Source of the DNA: Tsukamurella sp. TY48
Lineage (GTDB): Bacteria > Actinomycetota > Actinomycetes > Mycobacteriales > Mycobacteriaceae
Direction of reading: 5' to 3'
NCBI RefSeq assembly: GCF_019656655.1
Contig: NZ_BPMV01000002.1
Location: 744,001-808,000 of the forward strand
DNA: 64,000 bases
Positions 36,171 through 64,000 of the stretch are shown piece by piece. Position 1 is the first letter of the stretch; each line of letters begins with the position of its first letter. Both the position numbers and the translations under genes were made by a program. The notes below the pieces were generated by a model. It was not told where the DNA came from. It worked only from the letters and a program-made list of their open reading frames with translations, and searched no databases.

Positions 36171-37397
36171 TCAGCGGCCGTCCGCGATCTCGTCCAGGAT
36201 CGCGGCGACGGCGTCCATCGCTTGCTTCGAATCCGTTCCATAGGTGTGGTATTCGAGCTGGAGACGCCCGTTGAAGATCTTGCTGGTGTACATCTCGATA
36301 CCCGAGCTCACCTGGAAGAACAGTTCACCGTGTACGGCGGTCAGCTCCACCCCGTCCGGCGTGCGCACGGGTGGCACCACACCGTTGTCGGTGACCATCA
36401 CCACGTCCGGAAGGCCAGGCGGATTGCCGACGTACTCGGGAGTGAAATGCAGCAGCGACTGCTGAATCACCCCTGCCGCGAGATCATCGCGGAAGCTGTC
36501 CGCGATCTCCCTGCCGAGGCTCACCACGTCGGTGTCCGAATCGATTTCGGCGAGGAAGGTAGCGACGCCGACAGGATTGGTACAGCCCGTTGCGGTGACG
36601 GCCGGCGAGAGGACGTACCGAAGATCGACGGGGTAGATGTACGGAACGGGAATCGCCGTGCCACCCCGCAAGCGCCACTCCGCGACGAGTACTGCCGCAG
36701 ACACGATCCCGTTCACGCTCACGCGCCGATCACGGGAGAGGTCCACCAGGCGACGAGTCCGCTCCTCGCTGAAGGTGTGCTGCACCATCGGCACCCGCAC
36801 GGGGTGTGGGGGCCGCGCCGTCGTCACGGCGCGGCGTGACGGCGGCAGGTCGTAGGCGAACATCGCGGGCATGAACCGCTCCAGGCCGGACCGGCGTTGC
36901 TTCGTCACGTTCCGTTCAGCCAGGATCTTCTCCAGCCCCTCGGGGGCCGGCTGAGGCGGGCCGGGGCGGGCGCCACCCGTCGTCACGAGGTCGGTGTAGA
37001 TCCCGAAGAGTTCCTCGATCAGAGCGAACTGATGGTGTCCGTCCGCCAGCGCGTGGTGCACGTACAGCGTGGCGGCGGTCTGCGGGCCTTCCTGTTGCAC
37101 CGTCAGGTGCACCAGCGCCTGCTCCTGATCGAACTGCGGCGCGGGCGCATCAGCCGTGACGAGGGTGATTCCCGGGTGGAGGAGATCGTCGGCGACGATC
37201 CTGAAACCGCCGTCACCGTCGTCTTCGATCCGCGCCGCCAGGACCGGATGCACCTCGAGCAGGATCTCGAAGGCCTCACCGAGCGCGTCGACGTCGACCG
37301 GACCGTGGACGTGCGCCCCCAATCCGACGAAGTTGTGGGTGTCGGCGAACATCTTCTCGCTGTCCGCGAGTGCCCGCAGTACCGAGGATTCGAACAT
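36171..37397 (-). CDS. papA5: PapA5-type acyltransferase (condensation-domain fold)
   Basis: 408 residues. The catalytic HHxxxDG is present as HHALADG (about 118-124), near the middle of the N-terminal half as in PapA5. PapA5 of M. tuberculosis esterifies phthiocerol diols with mycocerosic acids. The C-terminal half (LRYVLSPAVTATGCTNPVGVATF) resembles that family's donor lobe. It is the last gene of the PKS-drr operon, 19 bases after the second permease gene, the place papA5 has after drrC in mycobacteria. Orthology is inferred from fold plus position; the acyl donor is unknown because no mas gene is in view. Confidence 0.85.
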   Translation of the reverse strand: MFESSVLRALADSEKMFADTHNFVGLGAHVHGPVDVDALGEAFEILLEVHPVLAARIEDDGDGGFRIVADDLLHPGITLVTADAPAPQFDQEQALVHLTVQQEGPQTAATLYVHHALADGHHQFALIEELFGIYTDLVTTGGARPGPPQPAPEGLEKILAERNVTKQRRSGLERFMPAMFAYDLPPSRRAVTTARPPHPVRVPMVQHTFSEERTRRLVDLSRDRRVSVNGIVSAAVLVAEWRLRGGTAIPVPYIYPVDLRYVLSPAVTATGCTNPVGVATFLAEIDSDTDVVSLGREIADSFRDDLAAGVIQQSLLHFTPEYVGNPPGLPDVVMVTDNGVVPPVRTPDGVELTAVHGELFFQVSSGIEMYTSKIFNGRLQLEYHTYGTDSKQAMDAVAAILDEIADGR

Positions 37398-37416
37398 GAC
37401 TGCCTCTCATCGATCG

Positions 37417-62900: not shown

Positions 62901-64000
62901 TCGACGTCCACTCGCCGCGCCATCAGCCCCCGCGCCGCGACCGCGTCCATCAGCGCGGCGATCCGGTCCGGATCACCCGCGACCACGGTCTGCCGCGGCG
63001 AGGCGACGACGGCCACGGATACCCCGTGGAATTCCGACGCCAGGATCTCGGCGGACGCCTCGTCCATCTCGATCAATGCCATCGCACCGCGGCCCGAAAG
63101 TTCACGACGCATGAGGCGCGAGCGCGTCGCGATGACCCGCAGACCGTCGGCCACCGACAATCCGCCCGATACGATCGCCGCGCTCACTTCGCCCATCGAG
63201 TGACCTATCACCGCGTCCGGGACGATGCCGTGCGAACGCCACAGCTCCACCAGGGCCAGCTGCACGCCGATGAGGACCGGCTGGATCCTGTCGATCCCCT
63301 CCACCGGGCGTCCCGACCGGAGTACCTGCGCGAGCGAGAAGCCCACCTGCTCGACGAAGACCTGGTCGAGATCCGCCACCGCGTCGGCGAATGCCGGCTC
63401 GGCGGTCAGGAGCCGCTGGCCCATCCCCGTCCATTGCGCCCCCTGGCCGGAGAACACGAAGACCACGCCGGAATCGCGCGCCGGCTCCCGCGCCGGTACG
63501 ACGCCGGCAGCAGACACACCGGCCGCCAGAGCGCGCAACCCCGCAACCGCGGCATCGCGATCCGCGGCGACCACCGCACCGAAGCACCCGCCCCGCGACC
63601 CGCGACCCGCGAGGGCCGCCGCGACGCTGGACAGCGGGGAGTCCGAGCCCGAGGTCTCGAGCCAGTTCGCGAGCACGTCCGCGAATCGCTGCACCCGTGG
63701 GACTGAGCCGGCCGGGACGGTCAGCCGAGTCAGGTCTGTTCCGGCGTCGGACTGAAACGCAGAAGGGGCATCGCTCGGCTCGTCGGGTGCCTGCTCCAGT
63801 ACGACGTGCGCATTGGTTCCACCGAACCCGAAGGAGGACACGCCCGCTCGCCGCGGGTGTCCGGCGGTCGGCCATTCGGTGGGCCCGCCGACGACCCGGA
63901 GCCTGTGGGCATCGAACGGAATGTGGGGGTTCGGAGCCGTGTACCCCAGGTTGGCGGGGATACGGGCCTTCCGCAGTGCCAGGACGGACTTGATGAACCC
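59909..64000 (-). CDS. Type I PKS of the Pps family, C-terminal part (KS end-AT-DH-like-KR-ACP), 5' end beyond window
   Basis: 1,363 residues are visible, open to the window edge. They begin in the last part of a KS ([27 protein letters not shown]), then AT (GHSMGE, VASH), a DH-like double hot-dog domain, KR (GGLGSLG; Tyr and Asn in [10 protein letters not shown]) and an ACP with GLNS instead of GLDS. In the DH-like part the motif reads HRVHQVELVP, so the Gly of HxxxGxxxxP is Gln; activity is doubtful. This domain is clearly related to the one behind the KR of the gene two downstream. The ACP and tail (LLDNLFDSVEG) resemble an early mycobacterial Pps module as I recall it. More PKS sequence certainly lies upstream. 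Confidence 0.85.
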   Translation of the reverse strand, partial: GFIKSVLALRKARIPANLGYTAPNPHIPFDAHRLRVVGGPTEWPTAGHPRRAGVSSFGFGGTNAHVVLEQAPDEPSDAPSAFQSDAGTDLTRLTVPAGSVPRVQRFADVLANWLETSGSDSPLSSVAAALAGRGSRGGCFGAVVAADRDAAVAGLRALAAGVSAAGVVPAREPARDSGVVFVFSGQGAQWTGMGQRLLTAEPAFADAVADLDQVFVEQVGFSLAQVLRSGRPVEGIDRIQPVLIGVQLALVELWRSHGIVPDAVIGHSMGEVSAAIVSGGLSVADGLRVIATRSRLMRRELSGRGAMALIEMDEASAEILASEFHGVSVAVVASPRQTVVAGDPDRIAALMDAVAARGLMARRVDVDVASHHRTVDPILDELRAELACLAPRKPTIPVLSTVLAGDTAPPFDADYWASNLRSPVRFAAAVADAADRWGTFVEVSPHPVLTHAVTECLPGSRHHVTGTVARDGDERLDFHTALASLGRHSDVQPRRPRIELPATPWLHSAHWMPPMRASSATDTVPRIGTVLGGRTRLVGTQTTDLWRARIAPTDRPYPGFHRVHQVELVPISVLLATFAAAASDIGAHGVDRLGFETPLVLNQHRIIHVILEGDRLTLSSAPGDDGPWTVHATARLAAGAAPDVLDPIGPDAVDDQARGITEPPAEWGVEGTPFPWSVSAVRRSDSALVVDVATAQTPITALLDAAVGVSRMVAPEDSRLLVPAAVDSLHVVNPAPSDGGRVTVRARDGRTLSGSDAVIGGVDVDVTDAHGTLLAELRGLRFAPVGDDALLSDAAPSEIVHTLEWRTWTPEDADRPRTVTVIGDEQLAAELAGTGLDISQNEDIDRSDRVLYVPQVRAEESDLAAATRLTCEVLDLVRAVNRAGTGRVWLLTHGVADGTSPSAAPQSVLWGLAGVIAAEHPESWGGLLDLPAAGPVGEGAPVAEALRGRSREPLRLRDGAITVGVPAAVPATDAGTPMRCRPDAAYLVTGGLGSLGLAIAVWLADKGARRIILAGRTPLPARAQWNTVVEPVLRERIDAVAALEQRGVAVETIALDIAAAGALTEYLADRDRQGAPAIRGIVHAAGVQSAMLIDDVDAESVDAVLAPKVAGARALADAFPPGTVDFLHLVGSAGAVYGVPGQSAYAAANAYLDGLARRRHHEGATDVLALDWVAWQDMGFGAGAEVVRRELERMGSRPVRPAEAFAAWEYAAAHGAHQAIMVPRPGGARPDAAGRDRAGETPVWSQMSPSDALASIESGLRDIVARELRMSPAELTADRPFAEIGLNSVMAMSIRRDAETLVGTELSVTMLWNHPTLGALARHLAERVGASPPGAESRGEPAAEQAGDGLLDNLFDSVEGSVQ

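Follow-up and report, generated by a model that had tools for sequence, protein, structure and literature searches.

What does a phthiocerol-type assembly line make in a bacterium that is not a Mycobacterium? The question is raised by 64,000 nt of the Tsukamurella sp. TY48 genome (G000:C2:744001-808000, in a genome of 4.37 Mb and two contigs; we call this whole stretch the window), on whose minus strand genes for five polyketide synthases (PKS1 to PKS5), the DrrA-, DrrB- and DrrC-like parts of an export pump, and a PapA5-like acyltransferase follow one another as open frames with ends that overlap or almost abut. A preliminary description of the window had likened this order to that of phthiocerol synthesis and export, and it had supposed that the organism makes a phthiocerol-like diol esterified by a PapA5 homologue, bringing this class of envelope lipids to a new lineage. 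We argue, from comparison of sequences, for something a little different: an inserted cassette with a two-branch, mosaic synthase line whose products would be esterified by PapA5 and exported by DrrABC. As a whole, this is the explanation that we think is probably right, if with modest confidence.

Phthiocerol dimycocerosates (PDIM) are usually regarded as lipids of slow-growing, mostly pathogenic mycobacteria, and the locus behind them comprises tesA, fadD26, ppsA-E, drrABC, papA5, mas, fadD28, and mmpL7. Passages of a 2013 comparison restrict phthiocerol genes to strains that grow slowly and are pathogenic (PMC3848822). The relevant passages of a 2011 survey have mas and mmpL7 absent from M. 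gilvum and M. vanbaalenii, and ppsC-E from M. vanbaalenii too; papA5 is not among the absences given there, and the absence of mas and mmpL7 is read as a hint that neither species makes PDIM (PMC3089613). In excerpts, that survey and a 2018 review already note PDIM-type genes in Corynebacteriales thought to be PDIM-negative, M. gilvum among them (PMC6194230, PMC3089613), and the review, in the passage concerned, leaves the product of such genes undecided (PMC6194230).

A cassette between zwf and xerC, and its relatives

The likeness to the PDIM locus, which we judged by way of the mycobacterial genome G281, runs through the whole order of TesA, FAAL (fatty-acyl-AMP ligase), five PKSs, DrrABC, and PapA5, and gene by gene, the aligned parts are 44-64% identical. 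A FadD26-type FAAL adjoins the PKS series, the series closes with a PpsE-type synthase of the layout ketosynthase (KS)-acyltransferase (AT)-acyl carrier protein (ACP)-condensation, and DrrABC adjoins papA5. Open frames and profile matches bear out the one-strand order from the PKSs through PapA5 that had first drawn attention to the window, Pfam bears out the PpsE layout of the last synthase, and the suspicion that the host might not be a Mycobacterium was well founded. The PapA5-like protein matches the solved PapA5 (PDB 1q9j, E=2.6e-107), has the HHxxxDG motif, and lies below all four curated NCBIfam cut-offs for PapA5 and PDIM transferases (best model 557 of 716 bits); 1q9j and the TesA structure 6fvj presumably both come from M. 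tuberculosis.

Position 64000 is only the edge of the window, and not the end of the cluster. The preliminary description had proposed looking upstream for the rest of the PDIM genes, and there the cassette does continue to the FAAL and a TesA-like gene; a TesA-type thioesterase, here upstream of the FAAL, is found in all 12 clusters searched. On the cassette's other side, the tailoring genes reach 29270. In TY48, zwf and xerC lie 39,007 bp apart, with an insert that runs from the flavin monooxygenase gene (29270) to tesA (68072). Elsewhere in the genus, these two genes are neighbours in all 10 stretches that we compared, from 10 of the 15 other genomes, with a gap within ~100 bp in eight and of at most ~1.25 kb in two, where the zwf alignment is partial; the cassette lies at another site in four of these genomes and is absent from six. 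PapA5 at 70% identity or more is found in 6 of the 16 Tsukamurella genomes, TY48 included. By its gene context, the region is an inserted cassette of ~39 kb that separates zwf from xerC and spans 29235 to about 68241 on the scale of the window.

Is the cassette a stray PDIM locus or something with kin of its own? We counted genes around the best 80 of 135 PapA5 relatives. An LCM methyltransferase gene and a flavodoxin-like gene occur together in 61 of these loci, 60 of which also have a nitroreductase gene, and the methyltransferase gene is on the opposite strand in 59. DrrABC matches are present in 38 of the 61, Tsukamurella and Gordonia included, and missing from 23, mostly Mycolicibacter. 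The remaining loci number 19, and some are short; Drr matches are present in 17 of them, and 10 have a large opposite-strand PKS (M. sherrisii and M. montefiorense are examples) that would, by analogy with G281, be Mas-like. The flavodoxin-like marker occurs in 21 of 401 family genomes, sampled from a larger group, and in 3 of 31 genera. In a quick PapA5 tree of 46 rows (45 of the 80 loci and the window), the window groups with Tsukamurella (99) and next with Gordonia plus a single uncultured row (98), with the slow-grower PapA5 proteins outside (99). Across 298 genomes sampled from the whole order, PapA5 at 44% identity or more is found, beyond the window, only in 13 genomes of a single genus (mycobacteria).

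In Gordonia and fast-growing Mycolicibacterium (for example, Gordonia jacobaea and M. hippocampi), uncharacterised pps-like clusters share with Tsukamurella the five PKS architectures, DrrABC, and PapA5, as well as the methyltransferase, flavodoxin-like, DUF2505, and nitroreductase genes. The terrae-type clusters of Mycolicibacter (G273 and named Mycolicibacter loci) likewise continue from PapA5 to methyltransferase, flavodoxin-like, and nitroreductase genes, although G273 has no DrrABC between PKS5 and PapA5. By these sequence criteria, the cluster forms a class of its own, with further members in Gordonia and in numerous mycobacteria of the fast-growing or terrae type. The lineage is thus new as far as Tsukamurella goes, but the class is not restricted to it. 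Titles and abstract openings in the open-access literature, where docking and convergence were not search terms, gave us no account of the class in Tsukamurella or Gordonia or of a two-headed line. Four loci titled Acidobacteriaceae, Bifidobacterium breve, or Acidobacteria (L067, on CAJCHX010000302.1, and L126, L127, and L129), yet bearing mycobacterial or Tsukamurella-type clusters, are probably mislabelled or mixed metagenome bins.

Mosaic synthases and their docking ends

Domains were called with Pfam and local profiles, and by the latter all 14 clusters of the class that we compared have the same five architectures (PKS1 of G626 being in two pieces). Chance or misassembly as the source of the gene order can be ruled out, since order and architecture are the same in all 14. 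This set leaves aside Gordonia polyisoprenivorans (G596), which is cut by a contig end, and uses once the contig common to G504 and G312; PKS1 of G626 and PpsD of G281 are each split into two frames, and the PKS3 region of G299 has an in-frame stop.

What are these synthases made of? Compared domain by domain with PpsA-E of G281 (our linear reference), PKS1 is PpsA-type; PKS2 joins a PpsA-type ACP and KS to a PpsB-type ketoreductase (KR) and ACP; PKS3 has a PpsC-type head and KS, a PpsB-type KR, and a PpsA-type DH' and ACP; and PKS4 fuses a PpsB-type head and KS to a PpsD-type dehydratase (DH)-KR-ACP. The AT segments depart from this pattern. In a KS tree of 11 clusters, from which G303 and clusters added later were left out, the PKS4 KS goes with the PpsB KS of G281 (SH-aLRT 97), the PKS3 KS goes with that of PpsC (100), and PKS1, PKS2, and PpsA fall into one group of 19 rows. 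Neither Pfam nor the local profiles find an enoyl reductase (ER) domain in any of the five synthases, and the cluster has no DH-ER-KR module. PKS3 has no Pfam dehydratase match at E<=1e-4, and profile comparison gives the domain after its KR a dehydratase fold (probability 97, E 4.6e-11 against the PKS4 DH; 0.1-0.2 for KR and ER controls), in a KR-DH order that is unusual.

The docking ends were classed solely by likeness to the PpsA-E ends of G281, with 200 shuffles each, a fairer test than our earlier motif patterns, which came from eleven clusters and missed some tails. In every one of the 14 clusters, alpha is the type nearest to the PKS1 tail (shuffle z>4 in 13) and to the PKS3 tail (z>4 in 12). 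PKS4 has in all 14 an alpha head and, like PpsD preceding PpsE, a delta tail; PKS2 has a beta tail and, in place of a docking head, an N-terminal ACP, again in all 14; and the PKS3 head is beta in 13, the exception being G299, whose frame is cut short. Because PKS1 and PKS3 both end in alpha and PKS4 begins with alpha, both seem to point to PKS4, and because PKS2 is headless, PKS1 has no head by which to feed it. The kinship of the KS domains agrees with these docking types. Docking ends and KS kinship together fit two starters that converge, FAAL>PKS1>PKS4>PKS5 and FAAL>PKS2>PKS3>PKS4>PKS5, unlike the linear PpsA>B>C>D>E docking of G281.

Why not simply a linear line, PKS1>PKS2>PKS3>PKS4>PKS5 as in PDIM, with the N-terminal ACP of PKS2 as a relay and not a loading site? 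The gene order equals that of PpsA-E, and the Tsukamurella and Gordonia clusters have a single FAAL (8/8), which tells against two FAAL-fed starters. So do the weak docking matches (z 3.4-3.7) of PKS1 in G306 and PKS3 in G299 and G303, and the tail strings, which include the last few ACP residues in a comparison of docking by sequence likeness. A linear line, however, has to do without a docking head on PKS2 and with a PKS1 tail of the type that pairs with the heads of PKS4 and PpsB; it also has to explain why the ACP and KS of PKS2 are PpsA-type (i.e., starter-type) and why, unlike those of Tsukamurella, the mycobacterial clusters of the class have a second FAAL directly before PKS2, besides the one before PKS1 (6/6). 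We think it unlikely, while granting it some weight.

Convergence on two starters, our preferred reading, is not the only departure from a straight line. The Mycolicibacter-type clusters G273 and G226 have the same alpha, beta, and delta types as Tsukamurella, and in both, the ends would describe a fork in midline, with PKS2 as the sole starter and two parallel modules (beta in, alpha out) replacing PKS1 and PKS3. In G187 and G242 (L191-L196), there is a four-module Pps-like line with a PpsC-type ER and linear docking (beta, gamma, delta), and past papA5, at the place taken by the Mas-like gene in G281, a FAAL and an ACP-KS-AT-DH-ER-KR-ACP synthase are encoded on the opposite strand. G172 (L159-L161) has a two-module line, in which a delta-tailed starter synthase comes directly before the PpsE-type synthase, followed by DrrABC, PapA5, and a Mas-like PKS.

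What the cassette may make

Could the product nevertheless be PDIM? In contrast to the G281 locus, the Tsukamurella cassette has no Mas-like gene and no second FAAL after papA5, and no PpsC-type DH-ER-KR module; its PKS2 has an extra loading ACP, PKS2 to PKS4 are domain mosaics, and the tailoring block is another one. Neither mas nor fadD28 was found beside papA5, where different genes follow (fadD28 was not sought elsewhere in the genome), and the 25 scored of 62 first-look candidates in TY48 included no full-length match of Mas type. The Mas-like protein of G281 shares with the cassette synthases a KS-AT core and the VASH motif, but it is one DH-ER-KR synthase without a docking tail. A complete pathway to true phthiocerol dimycocerosates, its mas, mmpL7, and lppX lying at other genomic sites, would find the TesA-like protein, the FAAL, five Pps-like PKSs, DrrABC, and PapA5 all in place, and MMPL-family genes do exist elsewhere in TY48 (the nearest ~90 kb from the window). 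With no Mas-type match, no DH-ER-KR module, and a PapA5 under the curated cut-offs, we find this pathway barely credible, and PDIM proper was rejected on the first two of these grounds.

The ATs offer a clue to the chains themselves. VASH is present in 28 of 28 ATs of PKS1 to PKS4 (seven clusters), HAFH in 7 of 7 ATs of PKS5, and VASH again in the Mas-like synthase of G281. Mas uses methylmalonyl-CoA, as the 2011 survey states (PMC3089613). By their motif, the ATs of PKS1 to PKS4 probably use methylmalonyl.

How might the pieces work together? FAAL would load long fatty acids onto the ACP of either of two separate starters, PKS1 or PKS2. In the short branch, PKS1 would hand its chain straight to PKS4 and then PKS5 to give a mono-hydroxy chain; in the long branch, PKS2, PKS3, PKS4, and PKS5 would in turn give a 1,3-diol if the DH' of PKS3 is silent and an alkene if it acts. 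The four VASH-type ATs predict additional methyl branches, and both chains would be released from PKS5 with TesA. PapA5 would then acylate the hydroxyls; given the lack of a Mas-type match among the candidates scored in TY48, the acyl groups would be other than mycocerosates, and a PKS of Mas type is probably not the maker of their donor. Tailoring of the product might fall to the methyltransferase, the oxidoreductases, and the monooxygenase, and its export to DrrABC. What we infer, then, is a predicted pair of hydroxy-lipids with methyl branches and with ester-bound acids other than mycocerosic ones, made and exported by the cassette, and probably an uncharacterised envelope lipid different from PDIM. 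The supposed phthiocerol-like diol keeps its homologous assembly line, its export pump, and its PapA5-type acyltransferase, and a diol is plausible as one of the two products; plain PDIM synthesis in a new host does not survive the missing Mas match, the ER-less PKS3, the extra ACP of PKS2, and the nonlinear docking.

The stronger statement, which in our judgment could fall either way, is that this is a convergent, two-headed modular PKS, in which two FAAL-fed starters and unequal branches meet at one shared module to give a matched pair of lipids, and which arose by shuffling of PpsA-E domains in a cassette that spread among Tsukamurella, Gordonia, and mycobacteria. A different use for the first starter can be imagined: FAAL and PKS1 might be a separate maker of acyl groups for PapA5, in place of Mas. 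The lack of a full-length Mas-type match among the candidates scored in TY48 leaves room for such a maker, and the FAAL-synthase pair at the Mas-like position in G187 and G242 resembles one. PKS1, however, has no ER, and it ends in a docking tail of alpha type. No docking tail is seen in the Mas-like protein of G281 or in the PKS1-like proteins of G187 and G242, and we hold this role to be improbable.

Several observations pull against the picture of a distinct, transferred cassette with a predictable product. The DH' of PKS3 retains HxxxGxxxxP and DxxxH in 7 of 7 clusters, so that one hydroxyl may be lost. In G281, VASH is located in PpsC and not in PpsD, although PpsD is the methyl-adding module, which makes VASH an imperfect sign of methylmalonyl. 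Another Tsukamurella with the cassette (G306) has a 2124-aa frame (C6:19704-26051) that matches Mas over its length at 35%. Two slow-grower-type loci (L139 and L143) have a flavodoxin-like homologue ~9 kb from PapA5, and this gene is therefore not wholly confined to the class. Finally, the GC content of the cassette is like that of its flanks (0.696 vs 0.701), and at third codon positions, it is lower in the cassettes of TY48 and G298 and hardly so in G303 and G306; with the overall content flat and the third positions uneven, recent transfer is not proven.

Cassette genes, their neighbours, and what they mean

Table 1. Features of the cassette, with positions on the scale of the window.
Feature	Position	Strand	Remarks
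Flavin monooxygenase	29270-30760	minus	cassette end beside zwf; FxGxxxHxxxW[PD], which we take to be a Baeyer-Villiger fingerprint
Short-chain dehydrogenase	30748-31599	plus	
Putative secreted protein	31608-33245	minus	545 aa; no Pfam family; homologues near many related clusters
Nitroreductase-family protein	33359-34066	minus	
DUF2505 protein	34059-34556	minus	
Flavodoxin-like protein	34561-35223	minus	marker of the class; no Pfam match; profile weakly resembles WrbA-type flavoproteins
SAM methyltransferase	35332-36162	plus	Pfam LCM; TIGR00027 match below its cut-off
PapA5-like acyltransferase	36171-37397	minus	HHxxxDG at residues 114-120
DrrC-like ABC permease	37417-38253	minus	TIGR00025 above cut-off; TIGR01248 drrC 153 bits, below its cut-off of 165.65
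DrrB-like ABC permease	38250-39053	minus	TIGR00025 above cut-off
DrrA-like ABC ATPase	39050-40024	minus	TIGR01188 377 bits, cut-off 312
PKS5	40021-44394	minus	1457 aa; KS-AT-ACP-condensation-like; PpsE homologue; no HHxxxDG
PKS4	44394-49799	minus	1801 aa; KS-AT-DH-KR-ACP; delta docking tail; both branches are proposed to meet here
PKS3	49799-55162	minus	1787 aa; KS-AT-KR-DH'-ACP; no ER; alpha docking tail
PKS2	55167-59912	minus	1581 aa; ACP-KS-AT-KR-ACP; putative second starter synthase; beta docking tail
PKS1	59909-65356	minus	1815 aa; ACP-KS-AT-DH'-KR-ACP; putative PpsA-type starter synthase; alpha docking tail; runs past the window end (64000) on the same contig
FAAL (fatty-acyl-AMP ligase)	65353-67122		beyond the window edge on G000:C2; NF004509 773 bits, cut-off 775
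TesA-like thioesterase	67329-68072		beyond the window edge on G000:C2; best solved match PDB 6fvj (TesA), E=4e-59

The tailoring block after PapA5 is common to Gordonia and many mycobacteria and unlike the genes that follow PapA5 in the classical-type loci compared. Within it, the Baeyer-Villiger fingerprint is present in all four Tsukamurella clusters tested (that of the window included) and in 10 of 15 monooxygenase frames of loci L065-L144, and it is absent in Gordonia jacobaea; because it is so patchy, we have kept a Baeyer-Villiger step out of the main claim. The N-terminal ~190 residues of the secreted protein are mostly confident and rich in helix in the AlphaFold model, for which no PDB fold match was found at E<=0.001. 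In Gordonia and many mycobacteria, relatives of this protein are encoded close to the clusters; of 40 members that were aligned, 7 carry a PE-PPE domain, which the window protein does not have.

The TY48 genome holds further genes of related kinds. About 6 kb past the cassette is a PapA-like acyltransferase frame (G000:C2:818185-819246), 35% identical to the window PapA5, and on the other contig lie tandem PapA-like or condensation acyltransferase genes (G000:C1:823138-832850); at least two such matches within ~5 kb are seen in 11 of the 16 Tsukamurella genomes, TY48 among them. A search for a trans-acting enoyl reductase gave four Sacchrp_dh_NADP matches in TY48, and a saccharopine-dehydrogenase-like gene near an MMPL gene (G000:C1:1152633-1156417) is a candidate for such a reductase with a transporter.

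What, then, does the cassette mean? A sister class with rearranged synthases is a natural comparison for the evolution of the PDIM assembly line, and Tsukamurella, Gordonia, and environmental mycobacteria are non-tuberculosis hosts in which both the docking code and the chemistry of the lipids could be tested. A convergent modular line, if true, would be an unusual design in PKS biology. If the two-headed reading is right, PDIM would be one member of a wider superfamily of lipids, the others of which are chemically uncharacterised.

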